From: Candidatus Saccharimonadota bacterium
GTDB lineage: Bacteria; Patescibacteriota; Saccharimonadia; Saccharimonadales; Saccharimonadaceae
NCBI GenBank assembly: GCA_017510425.1
Contig: JAFWNJ010000006.1
Location: forward strand, 1-44,652
Direction: 5' to 3'
Length of the DNA stretch: 44,652 bases
The notes under the pieces are model-generated. The model searched no databases. It saw only the letters and a list, made by a program, of their open reading frames with translations, and was not told the DNA's origin. Every line of letters starts with the position of its first letter. The stretch's first letter is position 1. The position numbers and the translations under genes are program-made. Shown here in pieces: positions 945-35,084 of this stretch.

Positions 945-1712
945 ATGGAAAATCAAATCATCCTAGTCGATAAACCAGCCGGCGTTTCCAGCTTCGGTGT
1001 CGTCGCCAAAATCCGTGGCAGATTGAAGGCCGAGCTTGGCCACAAAGTCAAAGTCGGCCATACCGGCACTCTGGACCCTTTCGCAACCGGCCTCCTCATC
1101 ATCCTGACTGGTCAAATGACTAAGAAATCCAACGAATTCTTGAAACTCGACAAAGTCTACGAAGCGACCCTAAAACTCGGCTACGCCTCCACCACCGGTG
1201 ACCCCGAAGGAGAGATTACAAAGCATACCCAAAGTATAAAATCCACTAAAATCGAGGAACATAAAGGCAAAATCTGCCAAGGGCAGATTCTTGCCGCCGA
1301 AGGGGCGAAGCAATGTGATAAAATCTCCGATTTATCACATTGCGAAGCTTCCGAGATTAGTGGATTTTATACTTTAAATACTATAGAATCTACCCTGAAG
1401 CGTTTTCTCGGTACTATCACTCAAACCCCTCCGCGCTTCAGCGCCATCAAAATAAACGGCGAGCGCGCTTATAAGCTAGCGAGAAAGAACCAAGATTTTG
1501 AAATCCCATCCAGGCAAGTTGAAATCTACAGTATCGATATCCTTGATTACCATTATCCTAATCTCACAATCAGAACCCACGTCAGTTCCGGTACCTACAT
1601 CCGCACTCTAGCCGAAGACATCGGCAAGGCCCTAAATACCGGCGCCTACCTCACCGCCCTCCGCCGCACCAGAATCGGAAATTATAGTGTCGATAACGCA
1701 ATTATGCTATAA
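945..1712 (+). CDS. truB: tRNA pseudouridine(55) synthase, with palindromic insert
   Basis: TruB isomerises U55 in the T-loop of tRNAs. The N-terminus has the family motif DKPAGVSSFGVV and the catalytic motif GHTGTLDPFATGLL with the nucleophilic Asp (about residue 45). PRFSAIKINGERAYKLAR and SSGTYIRTLAEDIG follow later. The 255-aa protein ends right after the catalytic domain (RRTRIGNYS), so there is no C-terminal PUA domain. About 40-48 residues between EGEI (about residue 87) and TLKRFLG have no counterpart in usual TruB. This stretch corresponds to the nested inverted repeat at 1231-1375, which keeps the frame open. The start is leaderless (TATAAT 6 nt upstream). The 3' end overlaps the promoter of the next gene. 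Confidence 0.95.
   Translation: MENQIILVDKPAGVSSFGVVAKIRGRLKAELGHKVKVGHTGTLDPFATGLLIILTGQMTKKSNEFLKLDKVYEATLKLGYASTTGDPEGEITKHTQSIKSTKIEEHKGKICQGQILAAEGAKQCDKISDLSHCEASEISGFYTLNTIESTLKRFLGTITQTPPRFSAIKINGERAYKLARKNQDFEIPSRQVEIYSIDILDYHYPNLTIRTHVSSGTYIRTLAEDIGKALNTGAYLTALRRTRIGNYSVDNAIML
1231..1375. repeat. nested palindromic element inside truB
   Basis: The outer arms are a perfect 19-bp inverted repeat (1231-1249 and 1357-1375). Inside are two further hairpins: 1266-1295 (GGCAA + AATCTGCC pairing with GGCAGATT + TTGCC, one bulge) and 1310-1343 (GCAATGTGATAAA pairing with TTTATCACATTGC). The whole 145-bp unit is translated in frame and coincides with the extra residues in TruB. Structure and location resemble the protein-coding palindromic elements described in Rickettsia, though no sequence relation is claimed. 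Confidence 0.85.
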
Positions 1713-5164: not shown

Positions 5165-6910
5165 TTATGGCTGGGCGATGGTGAAGGATTTGCCGGATAG
5201 GGGAGCTGCGTATGCAGATGTAGTTTGTCCATAAAGAAGACTAGTAGTATTGTTGATACTGTTCCCGTTTGTTTGAGGGATGGTTACAGACCAGGTGGTG
5301 GCGAAGTTGCCGGTAGATTCGAACATGCCGCTCATACTTGTCACACTAGAAGTATTCCAGGAGGAGAGGTCCAAAGTAAAGGTAGTAGCGAAGAAGCCAG
5401 CATAAAGGAACATGTAGCTCATATCTGTTACGTTGGAGGTATTCCAGGAAGAGAGATCCAAAATAAAAGTGGTGGCGGAGCGGCCGGCTTCAGAGAACAT
5501 GTAGCTCATGTTTATCACGTTGGAAGTATTCCAGGAAGAGAGATCGCCAATAGACCAGGTGGCGGCAGAGAAGCCGGCACCAGAGAACATGTAGCTCATA
5601 TTCGTCACGTTGGAAGTGTCCCAAGAAGAGAGATCGCCAATAGACCAGGTGGTGGCGGAGCGGCCGGCGTTAGAGAACATGTAGCTCATGCTTGTCACGT
5701 TAGAAGTATTCCAAGAGGAGAGATCCAAAGTAAAGGTGGTAGCGGAGTTGCCGGCGTTATAGAACATGTAGCTCATATCTGCCACGTTAGTAGTATCCCA
5801 ATCGGAAATACCAGAAATCTCAGAAAGACTGGCGAAGAGATAAAACATAAAGGATGAATCAGAAGGCAGGAAGATTTTTTCTCCTTCTGTATAGAAATGC
5901 ATAATACCAGCATCATTAGTATTATCAAAGATGATATAAATCGGTTTCTTAGATGCTGTAGACGAGATAGTGTTCATTTCGGAGGGATTAAAATCTGCAG
6001 GGGCAGGGGTTTTTAAGTGGATACTGATGGATTTAATATATCTATCATATGCTTGATCATAATCATAATAACCACTTGGGTCAAATTCTGGAGTAATGGT
6101 GGTTTCTTCACCACTTACAACAGAAGCGGCAAGAGATTTCAATTTGGAGTTAACTACTTTTCCGGTATCCAGCACAGCAGGATTAGCAATAGGTGCCTCA
6201 TGATTGCTTGGATGAACCAGAGTATAAATAACTTGCCCACTATACGTATCAGCTGGTTGGGTTTTAGATATGTAGGCAGCATAGGTAGTAGTAAGCTTAA
6301 CTCCGCCAGTAGATTCAGTCATATCGGTGACTGAGTTCTTGTGAGCAACTTTGGTATATTCATTTGGTACTACATGGTATTGTGAGAATGATGCGCTAGT
6401 AGCAGATTGTTCTGCTTGACTAGGTAATGCTACGTTAGGAGCAGAGTCAATGGTAAAAGCATTAGTTCCGGTAGTATCACCAGAATCCTGAGTTATGGCT
6501 AGTTTCATCGCCCAGTTAGATACATCAGGATTTCCTGCTGAGGTAGCTAATCCTGATTCTATAGCGGCATTACCACTGGCAGATGCCCCGACTAGCTTAT
6601 TACTATTAGTTCCACCTATTTCATCTCCTGTATATCCTGCTGCATAGATAGCAAAGCCTTCATTATCATTACAGAATACATGCATAGTAGTAGTACCAAT
6701 ATCTGGTGTATAGGTACCATTATTAATATTAGTATTATGACTATCCATTCCAGTACCAGACATAGTACAGGACATAGGGACGGTGATGTTGATTTCATCC
6801 ACTACATCATCCGCAGACACCTTATTTGATATTAAAGTAGCTCCAGCCAGTATTGTAATGCCAGCAATACCTACGGGAACCATCAAACTTAAATCTAGTT
6901 TTTTCTTCAT
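5165..6910 (-). CDS. BspA-like (DUF285) repeat surface protein
   Basis: A 581-aa exported protein. Residues 1-33 are a signal peptide (LMVPVGIAGITILAGATLIS then SADD). Residues about 35-240 form a module shared with the protein at 33123-35084: ITVPMSCTMSG, HVFCNDNEGFAIYAAGYTG, NWAMKLAIT, TTYAAYISKTQPADTYSG, VIYTLVHP. After a linker, residues about 365-540 hold about six DUF285/BspA-type repeats of 32-39 aa built on LSSWNTSNVTSMSYMFSNAG. Such repeats occur in bacterial adhesins of oral and gut species. There is no C-terminal membrane anchor or sorting signal, so how it stays on the cell is unclear. TATAAT (complement of 6917-6922) ends 6 nt before the ATG, so it is probably leaderless. Codons are more A/T-ending than in housekeeping genes. 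A role in attachment to host or partner bacteria is inferred. Confidence 0.85.
   Translation of the reverse strand: MKKKLDLSLMVPVGIAGITILAGATLISNKVSADDVVDEINITVPMSCTMSGTGMDSHNTNINNGTYTPDIGTTTMHVFCNDNEGFAIYAAGYTGDEIGGTNSNKLVGASASGNAAIESGLATSAGNPDVSNWAMKLAITQDSGDTTGTNAFTIDSAPNVALPSQAEQSATSASFSQYHVVPNEYTKVAHKNSVTDMTESTGGVKLTTTYAAYISKTQPADTYSGQVIYTLVHPSNHEAPIANPAVLDTGKVVNSKLKSLAASVVSGEETTITPEFDPSGYYDYDQAYDRYIKSISIHLKTPAPADFNPSEMNTISSTASKKPIYIIFDNTNDAGIMHFYTEGEKIFLPSDSSFMFYLFASLSEISGISDWDTTNVADMSYMFYNAGNSATTFTLDLSSWNTSNVTSMSYMFSNAGRSATTWSIGDLSSWDTSNVTNMSYMFSGAGFSAATWSIGDLSSWNTSNVINMSYMFSEAGRSATTFILDLSSWNTSNVTDMSYMFLYAGFFATTFTLDLSSWNTSSVTSMSGMFESTGNFATTWSVTIPQTNGNSINNTTSLLYGQTTSAYAAPLSGKSFTIAQP
5290..5810. 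repeat. tandem DUF285 coding repeats
   Basis: About five to six imperfect copies, each about 105-117 bp, of the unit coding for the BspA-like repeat. Copies are similar enough (for example CATGTAGCTCAT recurring on the + strand) to allow recombination and changes in repeat number. Confidence 0.75.
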
Positions 6911-6964: not shown

Positions 6965-7127
6965 ATGGACGGACGACATAACGCACGTTCCATGAGCGGG
7001 TGACGGACCTGGAGGGGGTCCCCCACGGAGCTTTTGCGACGTGGGGGAGGAGAAGGTCCGGCAGGACCCGCTCAAAGAGAAAGCGCCGGCAGGACCCGTC
7101 CATAATACAGACGACAGGACCCGCTCA
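6965..7127. repeat. GC-rich nested palindrome with short direct repeats
   Basis: Four nested stems are visible: ATGGACGG (6965-6972) with CCGTCCAT (7096-7103); TGAGCGGGT (6993-7001) with ACCCGCTCA (7066-7074); CGGACCT (7004-7010) with AGGTCCG (7054-7060); CCCCCACG (7020-7027) with CGTGGGGG (7040-7047). The motif CAGGACCCG occurs three times (from 7062, 7090 and 7115), about 25-28 nt apart. The region lies between divergent genes and is far richer in GC than its surroundings. It may be a structured RNA or a palindromic mobile element. Confidence 0.7.
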
Positions 7128-7153
7128 GAAATTAAGCATTGATACATCTGTGA

Positions 7154-10394: not shown

Positions 10395-10534
10395 TGTAAT
10401 CCTTTCTTGCTTATTTAGTATTAAATTAATGTTTTATAATTTATGCTTTTGCAAAATTCACTCCAATCGTTGCTTTACCGTAAATTGTTAATTTTCGTCT
10501 CTCGCAACCGAATCATCTCAAATTTCTAATCATG

Positions 10535-10621
10535 GGGTGGAGCCCGACGAACCATGTCGTCGGACTCTATAATGTACTACTTGATGTCGTGTCGTACATC
10601 TCACGATGTACGGCTCCACCC
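10535..10621. repeat. three-way nested palindrome
   Basis: Outer arms GGGTGGAGCC (10535-10544) and GGCTCCACCC (10612-10621) enclose two side hairpins: CCGACGA (10544-10550) with TCGTCGG (10557-10563), and CGTACATC (10593-10600) with GATGTACG (10605-10612). It lies downstream of the gene ending at 10660 and could act as a 3'-end structure for it, but there is no T-run. The same nested layout is seen at 1231-1375 and 6965-7127. Confidence 0.7.
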
Positions 10622-10659
10622 GTTAAGTTTTAGCTATCTACACGGGTCCCCACCCGTTG

Positions 10660-12111
10660 TTAGTCCGGTGGGCCTCCCCATTCGCCCGCCGGTTCTGTTA
10701 TCGGTTCACCGCCAACAATGGCCGCTGGTGGCTGAGTAGGAGTCGGTTCATTGATCGGTGCCGCTGTACCAATCTCAACAACCTCTTCTTCTCCAGCCTC
10801 GTTGGTTACAACCGCCTCAACTGCAGTGTTGCCAGTATCGCCGTTGTTGTCAACAACGGGCGGTGGTAACGTCTCTGGCTCGGCCTTCGGCTCAGGATTC
10901 GTCACATACTCCACGGGTGGCGTATATGACGGAGTGTTATCATCATCTCCAGTCTTCTGACTTTCGTTAATGATTTCAAGCCCCTCAACTACTTCCACAT
11001 ATTCCTCAGGATCGGACATATGGTTGCTATTGGTATCCTGATCTTCCGGTGAGTACACAGCACCTTCACCAGCGTTGGTGTCCGGCCCCGGGCCAGGATC
11101 GTCATTTGGCTCCACATATTCATATGAAGCCAATTCCGGATTCTTTTCCGGGTAGGTCGGCACTTCGGTTGGCGGTTCAGTTGGTGCCTCGGTTGGCGGT
11201 TCAGTTGGTGCCTCGGTTGGCACTTCGGTCGGCGCCTCGGTTGGCGGTTCAGTCGGCGGTTCAGTCGGCGCTTCGGTCGGTGGCTCAGTGGGCAGTTCAG
11301 TTTCTGGTTCAGTTTCCACAATTTCCTCCCCATAAAGTTCGGGGCGTTTATCGTGAATATTAAACCCAATTCTGAACAACTCATCGCCACTTTTCAACCG
11401 ATACGCCAGAATCAGCGCGTCTAGCGGGTACGTATACCCACTAAGCACACCCATCCGGTCATTATTGACCGCTGTATAATTCAGCGCCCAATTAGCCGTA
11501 TTGGAATGTGCTTCCACGCCGACTGGGACTAATCGTTCCAGCAGTATGCAGACGCAGGAAGCCAACGTCCGGTATTCAGTGGTCAGAAACATCGTTTTTC
11601 CCTCACCGGGGCGATATTCCAACCACCTTACCAAACCTTCTTCCTTATCCGGCTCCGACTTCGGATCCGTCAGACGTTCTAACCATGGGTTAATTTCTAC
11701 CATGGTCTTATCTCCGACGGTGAGCCGACTCAAGGCACGCGCCACCGTAATCCCATAGACGGGATTCAGCAGCACTTCCTTTTCCAGCTCAGCCAACATT
11801 TCTGTTGGCTCCGTTACCTCAAACGGAAACGTCAACGCATCCGAAAACCCACACGCTCTCTTCCTTTCTTCATCTTTCGGAGACAAAGAGTTGAAAGAGA
11901 GCTCCTGCCCGATGTCTTTGTATCGCTCATCAAGCAGAGTCTTTTCCAGATCTTCAGCGCGAACCGTTAGGTCTTCCGCCGCCAGCACCAGCTCGTCTTC
12001 TGTCACAGAGCGAACTAATTCGGCGATCTCATCCCTGCATACGTACAACGCGACAAAGATGAGTAAGAGGAATAAAACGAGAATCAACTGTGCCTTAATA
12101 AACCTTTTCAT
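10660..12111 (-). CDS. membrane-anchored protein with Pro-Thr-Glu repeats, unknown function
   Basis: Not recognised. The 483-aa protein has a single N-terminal membrane segment (LILVLFLLLIFVALYVC, about residues 9-25) and is otherwise predicted to be outside the cell. Residues about 30-265 form an acidic, probably folded domain with a few cysteines (CGFSDAL, ASCVCILLERL). Residues about 275-330 are PTEPPTEAP repeats, and the rest is Pro/Glu-rich and probably disordered. The ribosome binding site is strong (AGGAGGTGG, 7 nt before the ATG), with a canonical promoter and a leader of about 135 nt. This style and the richer GC content differ from the leaderless housekeeping genes, and the neighbour at 12417 shares it. 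Both may have been acquired together. Function is unknown. Confidence 0.65.
   Translation of the reverse strand: MKRFIKAQLILVLFLLLIFVALYVCRDEIAELVRSVTEDELVLAAEDLTVRAEDLEKTLLDERYKDIGQELSFNSLSPKDEERKRACGFSDALTFPFEVTEPTEMLAELEKEVLLNPVYGITVARALSRLTVGDKTMVEINPWLERLTDPKSEPDKEEGLVRWLEYRPGEGKTMFLTTEYRTLASCVCILLERLVPVGVEAHSNTANWALNYTAVNNDRMGVLSGYTYPLDALILAYRLKSGDELFRIGFNIHDKRPELYGEEIVETEPETELPTEPPTEAPTEPPTEPPTEAPTEVPTEAPTEPPTEAPTEPPTEVPTYPEKNPELASYEYVEPNDDPGPGPDTNAGEGAVYSPEDQDTNSNHMSDPEEYVEVVEGLEIINESQKTGDDDNTPSYTPPVEYVTNPEPKAEPETLPPPVVDNNGDTGNTAVEAVVTNEAGEEEVVEIGTAAPINEPTPTQPPAAIVGGEPITEPAGEWGGPPD
11155..11310. repeat. 12-bp tandem repeat coding for PTEP/PTEA
   Basis: About a dozen degenerate 12-bp units (GGTTCAGTTGGTGCCTCGGT-like on the + strand) encode the PTEP/PTEA spacer of the surface protein; a slippage-prone low-complexity tract. 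Confidence 0.7.
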
Positions 12112-12416: not shown

Positions 12417-13229
12417 TTATTCGTTAGAGTCCGACTCTGCAGTCTGCTGCATCAGCAGAGCGGCCTGCTGCATCAGCAGAGCAGCCTGCTGAACCATCTG
12501 AGTCGCAGACCGAGCCGACTGGCTCGACTGAGCCGTTCGCTGAGTCTGCTGGCCCGACCGAGCTGACTGAGCCGTCCGCTGAGTCTGCTGGCCCGCCTGA
12601 GCCGACTGAGCTGACTGGCCCGGTTGGGCCGTCCGCTGAGTCTGCTGGCCCGACTGAGCTGACTGAGCTGGCTGGCCTGACTGAGTCGACTGAGCTGCCT
12701 GAGCCGTCTGAGCCGTCTGAGCCGATTGAGCCGCAGGTTCTACTGCCGCAGGCGCCGCCTTTTTACGGGCGATAGCCTTGGCGATCCCGACAAATAGAAA
12801 CACCAGGATCGACAACAACGACAACCACAATGGCAAAGCCGTCACCCATGTGGTCAGAGTTCTATTCTCCCACAAAAGTGATGCCTTCCATCCCGCAGCC
12901 GTCGTTGGCGGGACCAACAGCAATAATATCACCATTAGCAATACTGCCTGCCAGAATCTGTCTGTGTTGAAGAACAACACATAATAATACAGATACAGCA
13001 GAATCATTGCAGCGTAAACCACTGCTCCTGCAACTGGACTAACAGTGGACACGCAATATCTAACTGCCGAGACAGCAATCGCAATGATCAGAGAATTCAG
13101 GAAGTTCCGAAAACCATGTCCTTTACGAATCGCATTAAGGACGACACATGTAAATACCAACGTGCACGCCCCAATCACAACAGTTTCGACTAACAGCTGG
13201 TTTCCCAGCAACATGTTAATAATGTTCAT
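12417..13229 (-). CDS. multispanning membrane protein with Gln/Ala/Ser-rich repeat tail
   Basis: Not recognised. With the start at 13229 the protein is about 270 aa. Residues 1-150 contain about five membrane segments (for example LVETVVIGACTLVFTCVVL, AVLLMVILLLLV, LWLSLLSILVFLFVGIAKAI). After a basic stop-transfer stretch (AIARKKAAP), about 110 residues of cytoplasmic or external low-complexity tail repeat SAQSGQQTQRTAQ. The tail ends with a duplicated QQAALLMQQAALLMQQ helix. The start is set by an AAAGGGGG site before ATG 13229 and by the promoter at 13313-13341, which lies downstream of the longer ORF's first ATG (13331). Composition and codon use (many CTG, GCG) differ from the housekeeping genes. 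It and the 10660 gene form a distinct pair. Confidence 0.6.
   Translation of the reverse strand: MNIINMLLGNQLLVETVVIGACTLVFTCVVLNAIRKGHGFRNFLNSLIIAIAVSAVRYCVSTVSPVAGAVVYAAMILLYLYYYVLFFNTDRFWQAVLLMVILLLLVPPTTAAGWKASLLWENRTLTTWVTALPLWLSLLSILVFLFVGIAKAIARKKAAPAAVEPAAQSAQTAQTAQAAQSTQSGQPAQSAQSGQQTQRTAQPGQSAQSAQAGQQTQRTAQSARSGQQTQRTAQSSQSARSATQMVQQAALLMQQAALLMQQTAESDSNE
12440..12745. repeat. low-complexity coding repeat (Gln/Ala/Ser tail)
   Basis: Degenerate repeats of GACTGAGCTGACTGGCCC-like sequence (+ strand) encode SAQSGQQTQRTAQ units. At least three longer copies containing CGCTGAGTCTGCTGGCCC are seen. Confidence 0.7.
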
Positions 13230-13312
13230 CTTTCCCCCTTTCTGCACCCCCCACTTGGCCGAACGAAGAATTTGGCTATTAATGTACCTCTTCATCCTTC
13301 CAAAGTAATTTA

Positions 13313-13341
13313 ATATTAACATATATAACACAATCTGTCAA
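13313..13341 (-). promoter_or_regulatory. promoter of the 12417 gene
   Basis: On the minus strand, TTGACA (complement of 13336-13341), 17-bp spacer, TAATAT (complement of 13313-13318). The start would be near 13306, leaving a leader of about 75 nt to the ATG at 13229. Confidence 0.65.
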
Positions 13342-33122: not shown

Positions 33123-35084
33123 CTACTGCGCACTAGCTACACAGCGGGCCGCCCTTCCGTAATACTTGGTGCTGCTGTTTGTACCTGGGTAGATGTTAGA
33201 AGAGCTGAAGTACAGGAGGTAGGCGTAGTTATTACTGCTCGCCGTAGACGACCAATAGCTTCCGTTGCTACCACGACTGTTAATGGAGGCGCCACTCACG
33301 GTGCCCGAGTAGAGAAGATTATTTGGGAAATGACGAATTCTCTTAAGCATTATAGCTACAGTTGGAGAAGTAGAGCTAGTCATTGTTTGTGCCGTGCCAT
33401 TGCTTTGCAAGCCACCAAGGCTATTACTAAGTACACCGAATTCACCAGTACCTGTACCGGTAGGTAGGTGCCATCCATTCGGACAGAGATCTCCCTCTGT
33501 ATTACCACTGGATTTACTATAGGTTCCCCTACCAGCTGTAGCAGAATACCAGTTGTAGTAATTGCCATATGAGTATAGATTTGCACCGGTAGACATGGTT
33601 TGGGTATTGGTGTATGAGACCCTACTAGCAGTATTATCAGTCCTGAGTCTAGACTGGTCATCACAGGCAGCAGAATTAGTGCTACACCAGCCTTCTGGGG
33701 CAGTGTCAGCATTATAAGCCACATTTGATGTTGGGGAAAGGTTAGTGAAGGTTTGCGTGTCGGTATAGTTATGCTTTAGTATGACAGTAGGATTAGTTGG
33801 GTCGTTATCGTTCAATGGATTGTTAGTATTAGCCGTGGTGAGAGTTGTAGGTACAGTATTGGCTCCTTCCTGGTGAGTATCAGCTAGTCTTAAGTTTTCT
33901 ATCATCCAGCACTTACCATCGGTGAGTTTGGCAATAGCATAGGTCTGGTTATCTCGTGTATCAGTCAGAGCTGAGATACTGGATAGATTTGCGGTAATGG
34001 ACCAAGTGGATTCGTCTTGATCGCCTTCATTATTATAGGTAGCAGCAATTAAACTACCATTGACATCGCAGAGTTCAGCGACTTTGCTAGAGTCTTGGAG
34101 ATTACCAGCAGACTTAATCCAGACAGCATAAAGGGCTAGTCCATTAGCTGTAGTACCGGTAGGGACTGTAATATCTTCATTTGGACCATAGAAGTGAGCA
34201 TTTGGATTAATTTCATAATCATAGGCATCAGACCAGCCAGCAAAGCCATAACCTTCGCGGGAGAAATTGGATGCAAATAAAGTTACAGTATTACCGTCCG
34301 TAGCCGCTTGCCTTCCCATCGTACCTTCAGCAGTCTTAGCATTAGCATAGTAATTAATATATCCTGCAGTAGAGGGTTGTGGTCTTAATGGTTCTTCAGA
34401 AGCTGGATGAAGTAGAGTGTATTTAACTTGTCCAATATATGTACCAGCTTTCTGGGTAGAACTAATATAAACAGCATAGGTAGTAGTGACTCTAGCGCCC
34501 TCTGTATAGATACTATTATTATCTACATCAGTACCAGAATTACGATAAGATACTCTGGTGTAGGTAGATGGTACTGCAGCCCAGTCACTATAGTCAGTAT
34601 CACCGGATTGTTTTTCAGAGTCACCAGTACTTCCGGCAATGATGGGAGTATAAGTACCAGACGTTACACCAATCTTCATCGCCCAGGCTGAAGTATTACC
34701 AGTGAATGTAGTACTAGTTAGAATATCACTAGTTTGTCCTAAGGTACTATCTCTAAGATATGTATTTCCTAATGTATCATCACTATATCCTACTGCATAG
34801 ACGGAGAATCCTTCATTATCATTACAATAGACTTTAAGTGTAGTTTGTCCAATACCATCAGGATAATAATCTTGTCCACGGGAATCTATACCATTAGGGA
34901 CTTCTGCTGTATGAGCAGTATCAGTCGTACTAGACATAGAACAGGCCATAGGTACTGTAATGGTAGCTGTAGTTACACTAGAATCATCTGCCATAGCTTT
35001 AGGTAGAGTTAGTATTCCGCCCATTAGTATAGTCACTCCTACCATACCGCCAGGCAACAAGAAGCTCACAAATCTAGATTTCAT
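33123..35084 (-). CDS. modular surface protein with FISUMP-like domain
   Basis: A 653-aa exported protein. Residues 1-32 are a signal peptide (LLPGGMVGVTILMGGILTL, then MADD). Residues about 35-235 are the same module as in the protein at 5165-6910 (ITVPMACSMSS, VYCNDNEGFSVYAVGY, WAMKIGVTSG, TTYAVYISSTQKAGTYIG, VKYTLLHP). Residues about 245-325 look like a Listeria-Bacteroides repeat (FAGWSDAYDY, GLALYAVW). The C-terminal half is a FISUMP-like domain (AIAKLTDGKCWMIENLRL, GDLCPNGWHLPTGTGTGEF, GSNGSYWSSTASSNNYAY, RCVASAQ), typical of large surface protein families. No C-terminal anchor is seen. TATAAA box ends 8 nt before the ATG. Probably adhesion or display; function unproven. Confidence 0.85.
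   Translation of the reverse strand: MKSRFVSFLLPGGMVGVTILMGGILTLPKAMADDSSVTTATITVPMACSMSSTTDTAHTAEVPNGIDSRGQDYYPDGIGQTTLKVYCNDNEGFSVYAVGYSDDTLGNTYLRDSTLGQTSDILTSTTFTGNTSAWAMKIGVTSGTYTPIIAGSTGDSEKQSGDTDYSDWAAVPSTYTRVSYRNSGTDVDNNSIYTEGARVTTTYAVYISSTQKAGTYIGQVKYTLLHPASEEPLRPQPSTAGYINYYANAKTAEGTMGRQAATDGNTVTLFASNFSREGYGFAGWSDAYDYEINPNAHFYGPNEDITVPTGTTANGLALYAVWIKSAGNLQDSSKVAELCDVNGSLIAATYNNEGDQDESTWSITANLSSISALTDTRDNQTYAIAKLTDGKCWMIENLRLADTHQEGANTVPTTLTTANTNNPLNDNDPTNPTVILKHNYTDTQTFTNLSPTSNVAYNADTAPEGWCSTNSAACDDQSRLRTDNTASRVSYTNTQTMSTGANLYSYGNYYNWYSATAGRGTYSKSSGNTEGDLCPNGWHLPTGTGTGEFGVLSNSLGGLQSNGTAQTMTSSTSPTVAIMLKRIRHFPNNLLYSGTVSGASINSRGSNGSYWSSTASSNNYAYLLYFSSSNIYPGTNSSTKYYGRAARCVASAQ

Follow-up and report, generated by a model that had tools for sequence, protein, structure and literature searches.

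A dispersed palindromic repeat inserted in frame in truB of a Saccharibacteria genome, very probably a short mobile element of the non-autonomous kind

The truB locus and its nested palindrome

We analysed a stretch of 44,652 nucleotides of Candidatus Saccharimonadota DNA (hereafter the window). It corresponds to contig C12 of a genome of 840 kb that is 94% complete, with 5.4% contamination. On the plus strand of the window, positions 945-1712 hold truB, encoding a tRNA pseudouridine(55) synthase of 255 amino acids with an in-frame insert, as assigned from the ORF translation and from matches to the Pfam TruB_N and TIGR00431 profiles, the latter well above its cut-off. The TruB profile aligned as two stretches separated by a gap, and the content of the gap is a nested palindrome at positions 1231-1375. 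Between the motifs STTGDPEG and QTPP the window protein has 82 residues, compared with 37-47 in the insert-free TruBs of the genus, an excess of about 43 codons that agrees with the 40-48 extra residues estimated in an earlier note on this DNA.

The palindrome was delimited by an inverted-repeat search, by folding and as a dispersed repeat, here termed family A, and all its parts are given on the plus strand. Its left outer arm (1231-1249), which comparison of copies showed to be private to this copy, is perfectly complemented over 19 nt by the right outer arm (1357-1375); extended to positions 1254 and 1352, the outer inverted repeat spans 24 nt at 92%. Between the arms lies the conserved and presumably mobile core of 101 nt (1254-1354), defined by core alignment and tree and encoding EEHKGKICQGQILAAEGAKQCDKISDLSHCEASE. 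The core contains inner hairpin 1 (1266-1295), seen in the fold and in the alignment structure, and inner hairpin 2 (1310-1343), for which the inverted-repeat search also returned perfect 13-bp arms (1310-1322 and 1331-1343). As single-stranded DNA the segment folded at -42.1 kcal/mol, compared with -13.4 ± 2.7 kcal/mol in 200 dinucleotide shuffles (z = -10.6). These coordinates and the fold bear out the earlier description of a perfect 19-bp inverted repeat enclosing two hairpins, all within the TruB reading frame.

Judging from the sequence, the insert is translated as part of TruB. The AlphaFold model of the window protein, built with 34 sequences, had a mean pLDDT of 86; scores fell below 50 at residues 105-126 and 130-137, covering most of the insert, and mostly exceeded 90 elsewhere in the fold. 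When the protein is aligned with E. coli TruB (1r3f), the matched stretches stop at chain residue 98 and restart at 107, hence the insert falls in a short linker of that structure. The insert peptide is thus predicted most likely to form a floppy surface loop on an intact TruB fold, the placement that the earlier note had proposed to check.

Dispersal of family A

Family A occurs in six copies in its own genome, the five besides truB being located on contigs 6, 9 (two copies), 17 and 20 and 73-76% identical to the truB copy. Matches (E up to 0.001) were found in 15 of 99 sampled congeneric genomes, a count that includes partial or weak matches (G060, G093 and G094). The presence of the element among congeners is patchy, with many copies or none per genome, and the richest genomes hold 15-21 first-look candidate copies each. 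In the wider family, matches were limited to one genus except for one partial match of 31 nt. Furthermore, a 32-nt core pattern compared with 84,980 species gave 37 hits, all in MAGs, of which 35 were titled Saccharibacteria and two came from a single rumen MAG, "uncultured bacterium isolate RUG10634". The host sources given in the hit titles were ruminant guts (sheep, goat, cattle and buffalo), several titles naming no source, and no copy was found in the viral contigs searched. Because the element recurs in independent assemblies with different prefixes, all of them metagenome assemblies, an assembly artefact is unlikely.

Most family A copies are intergenic. The 101-nt truB core shares 96% identity with the dus copies of genomes G055 and G063 and with the truB copy of G063, and 94% with an intergenic copy in G055; family A therefore moves between unrelated loci. 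In a tree of 72 cores, the truB core and its near-identical relatives formed a tight cluster, separate from the other copies of its own genome. Outside the core, the arms of the truB and dus copies are unrelated despite the 96% identity of what they enclose. The truB insert common to G000 and G063 may reflect shared descent, an exchange of truB or two insertions. Dus of G089 (L171) seems to contain a decayed copy of family A that has kept its arms and lost its inner hairpins.

Among the copies examined, eight lie within long frames of recognisable genes, four genes in all: truB (the window and L122), dus (L057, L059, L184 and L211), ychF (L022) and a gene for a methyltransferase-like protein (L206), which was named by eye. 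All eight agree in strand and frame, and their cores read as the peptide E-[EK]-[HR]-K-G-K-I...A-A-E-G-A.... Four of the six core frames are open in most coding copies, yet one is used. In that frame the coding cores are free of stop codons, and many intergenic copies contain them. The earlier note had asked whether the segment is absent from TruB of relatives and whether copies of it occur elsewhere. We found that many congeneric TruBs are without the insert, and that the segment is dispersed in its own genome and in congeners, in frame in other proteins too. A TruB loop carried by all relatives in a form devoid of inverted repeats was not seen among congeners. The note's proposal that a class of protein-coding selfish repeats operates in this lineage gains support from the dispersal, the in-frame copies and the near-identical cores in non-homologous genes.

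Insertion hotspots and unrelated palindromes

The insertion site in TruB is shared with other repeats. Among 90 congeners, about 36 carry an insert at the same place, and most of these belong to other sequence families. Long TruB inserts folded with z below -3 in 27 of 30 cases tested (mean -5.9), compared with a mean of -1.05 for short loops, 6 of 36 of which were also below -3; the non-palindromic long loops were L099, L107 and L109. Dus is occupied in about 20 of 94 congeners, YchF in 11 of 87 (one insert, in G022, not being palindromic) and Obg in 28 of 95, 20 of the 28 having been fetched for reading. Empty sites were found among congeners at all four proteins, and in other species the truB, dus, ychF and obg sites are occupied by unrelated nested palindromes. 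Moreover, in the genome of the window two further, sister families lie in frame in many essential genes, their proteins being named by eye as Dus, YchF, Obg, GyrA, ArgRS, IleRS, PolA and PBP2. The IleRS-like (L233) and ArgRS-like (L234) proteins apparently contain three palindromic inserts each.

Three short alleles, L066 and L071 of truB and L148 of dus, have palindromic arms without a core, looking like deletion scars of earlier inserts. We also considered insertion into pre-existing host hairpins; a few empty Dus and TruB sites do contain native inverted repeats, some of these sites being scar-like, but most contain none.

Base pairing and the outer arms

An alignment of 42 copies supported a four-helix structure in which 96% of cells are paired. 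Double-sided change was seen in 32 of 41 pairs, and pairing is kept through such change in the outer stem and in both main hairpins. The observed values were reached by none of 500 shuffles, which ignore the relatedness among copies; structures slid along the alignment dropped to 26-49% paired. The element stems contain 36 G:U pairs and 33 A:C mismatches, in contrast to tRNAs of the same loci, with 37 and 0, a generous control since the tRNA finder favours or requires pairing. Because G:U is no commoner than A:C, pairing is kept at the DNA level, and this argues for a process or selection on DNA, or equally on transcripts of both strands. An Rfam search of the copies returned chance matches only and no curated family.

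Each copy has outer arms of its own, which are nevertheless complementary to each other, and in two host genes one arm complements host codons. In YchF, the L-[VI]-x-P linker starts with Leu in 31 of 31 intact alleles and mostly continues as K-P-A. The interrupted YchF of G054 retains the K-P-A codons on the right; its left arm, ATGGTAGCAGGTTTGCAG, reverse-complements them across 18 nt except at a single mismatch and replaces the otherwise invariant Leu with Met. The intact Obg alleles read have a conserved right flank, [IL]-A-D-L. In interrupted alleles the left arm complements the I/L-A-D-L codons and tracks their synonymous variants: where the offset is the same, the third position of the Ala codon (T or C) always finds its match in the arm, and that of the Asp codon mostly does. 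As an automatic search for Obg arms selects the best matches and is biased, this statement relies on a fixed-offset subset (L240, L328, L329, L331, L336, L339, L341 and, by fold, L332). The evidence for arms as inverted host codons comes from ychF and obg, the TruB loop around the window copy being variable. Furthermore, many intergenic copies share an arm consensus, TTGCATAATTCAT, and the arms are therefore not always host-derived.

A proposed mobile core with rewritten arms

Taken together, we consider it highly probable that the truB segment represents a short mobile element, non-autonomous and belonging to one Saccharibacteria genus, whose core is copied to new sites and which is most likely selfish and tolerated; its stems would arise or be maintained through template switching. 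According to the mechanism we propose, an enzyme would move a core of about 95-101 nt, consisting of two hairpins and a basal stem. Most copies would land in spacers, while those established in protein genes would have one orientation and one stop-free frame. There the insert would sit in a surface loop (modelled for TruB only), and the enzyme would gain a disordered peptide while keeping its fold. The outer arms would not be a constant component of the element. Instead, they would be formed or repaired at the replication fork through short-range template switching, whereby one flank, along with any host codons in it, is rewritten to reverse-complement its partner. Such stems have been reported to be generated and repaired by template switching (PMC8794818), and we infer that it could make or repair those of family A. 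As to the putative mobiliser, Y1 transposase was absent from all family A carrier genomes, reverse transcriptase (RVT_1) and rve integrase domains did not clearly track the carriers, and no target-site duplication was recognisable by eye at the dus, ychF or obg sites.

Several other explanations were weighed against the copying of a mobile core. To read the insert as a normal TruB loop, specific to the lineage and with chance inverted repeats, is almost certainly wrong: loop length does vary in the genus even without inserts, and a handful of long loops lack palindromes, but the same core lies outside truB, in spacers, in dus (at up to 96% identity) and in ychF, and the great majority of long TruB inserts are strongly palindromic. 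It is also highly improbable that the inserts are kept because the host protein profits from them, say through a tuning of RNA-binding enzymes, with functional hotspots in TruB, Dus and the tRNA methyltransferase-like protein. Several insert hosts are indeed tRNA-modifying enzymes, aminoacyl-tRNA synthetases and translation GTPases. However, unrelated peptides occupy the same site across species and many species are without any, the insert peptide is predicted to be disordered, scar-like alleles exist, and GyrA-, PolA- and PBP2-like proteins carry inserts as well. Most likely, family A is a selfish element that the host tolerates and not one that serves TruB.

Little more probable is a conserved structured RNA (a riboswitch, small RNA or terminator) with an accidental copy in truB. 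The multibranched structure, the covariation in the long stems and the intergenic location of most copies would suit such an RNA, whereas the lack of an Rfam match, the G:U count, which unlike that of tRNA is not above A:C, the patchy presence and the in-frame copies in four proteins do not. Unlikely, though much less so than the preceding explanations, is an element that is mobile with its outer arms inside the transposing unit, where selection for transposition alone, free of template switching, would keep the arms complementary. The arm consensus common to most intergenic copies is in its favour; against it, the arms are unrelated between coding copies whose cores are 96% identical, and one of the arms is complementary to conserved host codons in ychF and in obg. 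A bolder reading has in our estimate slightly less than an even chance of being correct. It holds that Saccharibacteria host a guild of unrelated protein-coding palindromes that transpose as bare cores and gain their stems by reverse-complement copying of the host flank at the new site; insertion and replication would then produce the palindrome, which would not be inherited cargo, and adjacent host codons would be rewritten.

Relation to known palindromic repeats

Selfish palindromes within protein-coding sequence have, to our knowledge, passed for a peculiarity of Rickettsia and Wolbachia; how they originate and move has been an open question. The Rickettsia palindromic elements (RPE families), reported also from Wolbachia, are the closest known system, and family A is alike in being a palindromic multicopy repeat of 100-150 bp found in frame in genes that keep their frame. 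The Rickettsia elements measure about 100-150 bp, form several families and reside in spacers and in frame in housekeeping genes, including those for tRNA-modification enzymes and tRNA synthetases, with different families at orthologous sites (PMC10969869, PMC3767692). Their repeat identity was reported to be lost over time (PMC6649704), in contrast to the arms of family A, which stay complementary and can be inverted host codons. Family A also belongs to a different phylum, its core pattern matching Saccharibacteria-type MAGs only among the 84,980 species. The likeness to Rickettsia elements suggested earlier stands as an analogy between in-frame palindromic repeats, and the core pattern search speaks indirectly against sequence homology.

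Prokaryotic MITEs, which can make in-frame fusions (PMC10969869), are likewise short, non-autonomous and multicopy with terminal inverted repeats. In family A, by contrast, the terminal repeats differ between copies, target-site duplications are not recognisable and no autonomous partner was found among Y1, RVT_1 and rve. REP elements moved by RAYT (Y1) transposases are also small palindromic repeats dispersed in spacers; unlike them, family A is longer and multibranched, lies also within coding sequence and occurs in carriers lacking Y1 transposase. In nematomorph mitochondria, translated genes contain perfect inverted repeats whose arms are kept identical, and template switching was proposed (PMC6649704). 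Those palindromes were not described as a dispersed sequence family, whereas family A has a conserved mobile core between its arms.

In the open-access literature we found no earlier report of such elements in Saccharibacteria or Patescibacteria. Our data place several independent palindrome families in a distant, reduced lineage, where dozens of species can be compared and a given gene is met in filled, empty and scar-like form. That the arms covary with synonymous host codons makes template switching directly testable as the maker of stems. In addition, insert peptides in Saccharibacteria proteins can pass for domains.

Other repeats in the window

The earlier note had linked the truB insert with two more nested palindromes of the window, neither of which belongs to the same family by sequence. 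The one at 10534-10622, between two genes, gave no second copy in its own genome at the sensitivity used. The other, at 6975-7128, is an intergenic nested palindrome whose separate family has numerous additional matches in the same genome, several of them in frame in proteins such as the PolA-like and PBP2-like ones. This family is one of the two described above as inserted in frame alongside family A. All on the minus strand, large predicted surface proteins are encoded at 5165-6910 and 33123-35084, the first with MSYMF..AG..ATT-type repeats, and predicted proteins with low-complexity PTEPPTEAP and AQSAQ repeats at 10660-12111 and 12417-13331.
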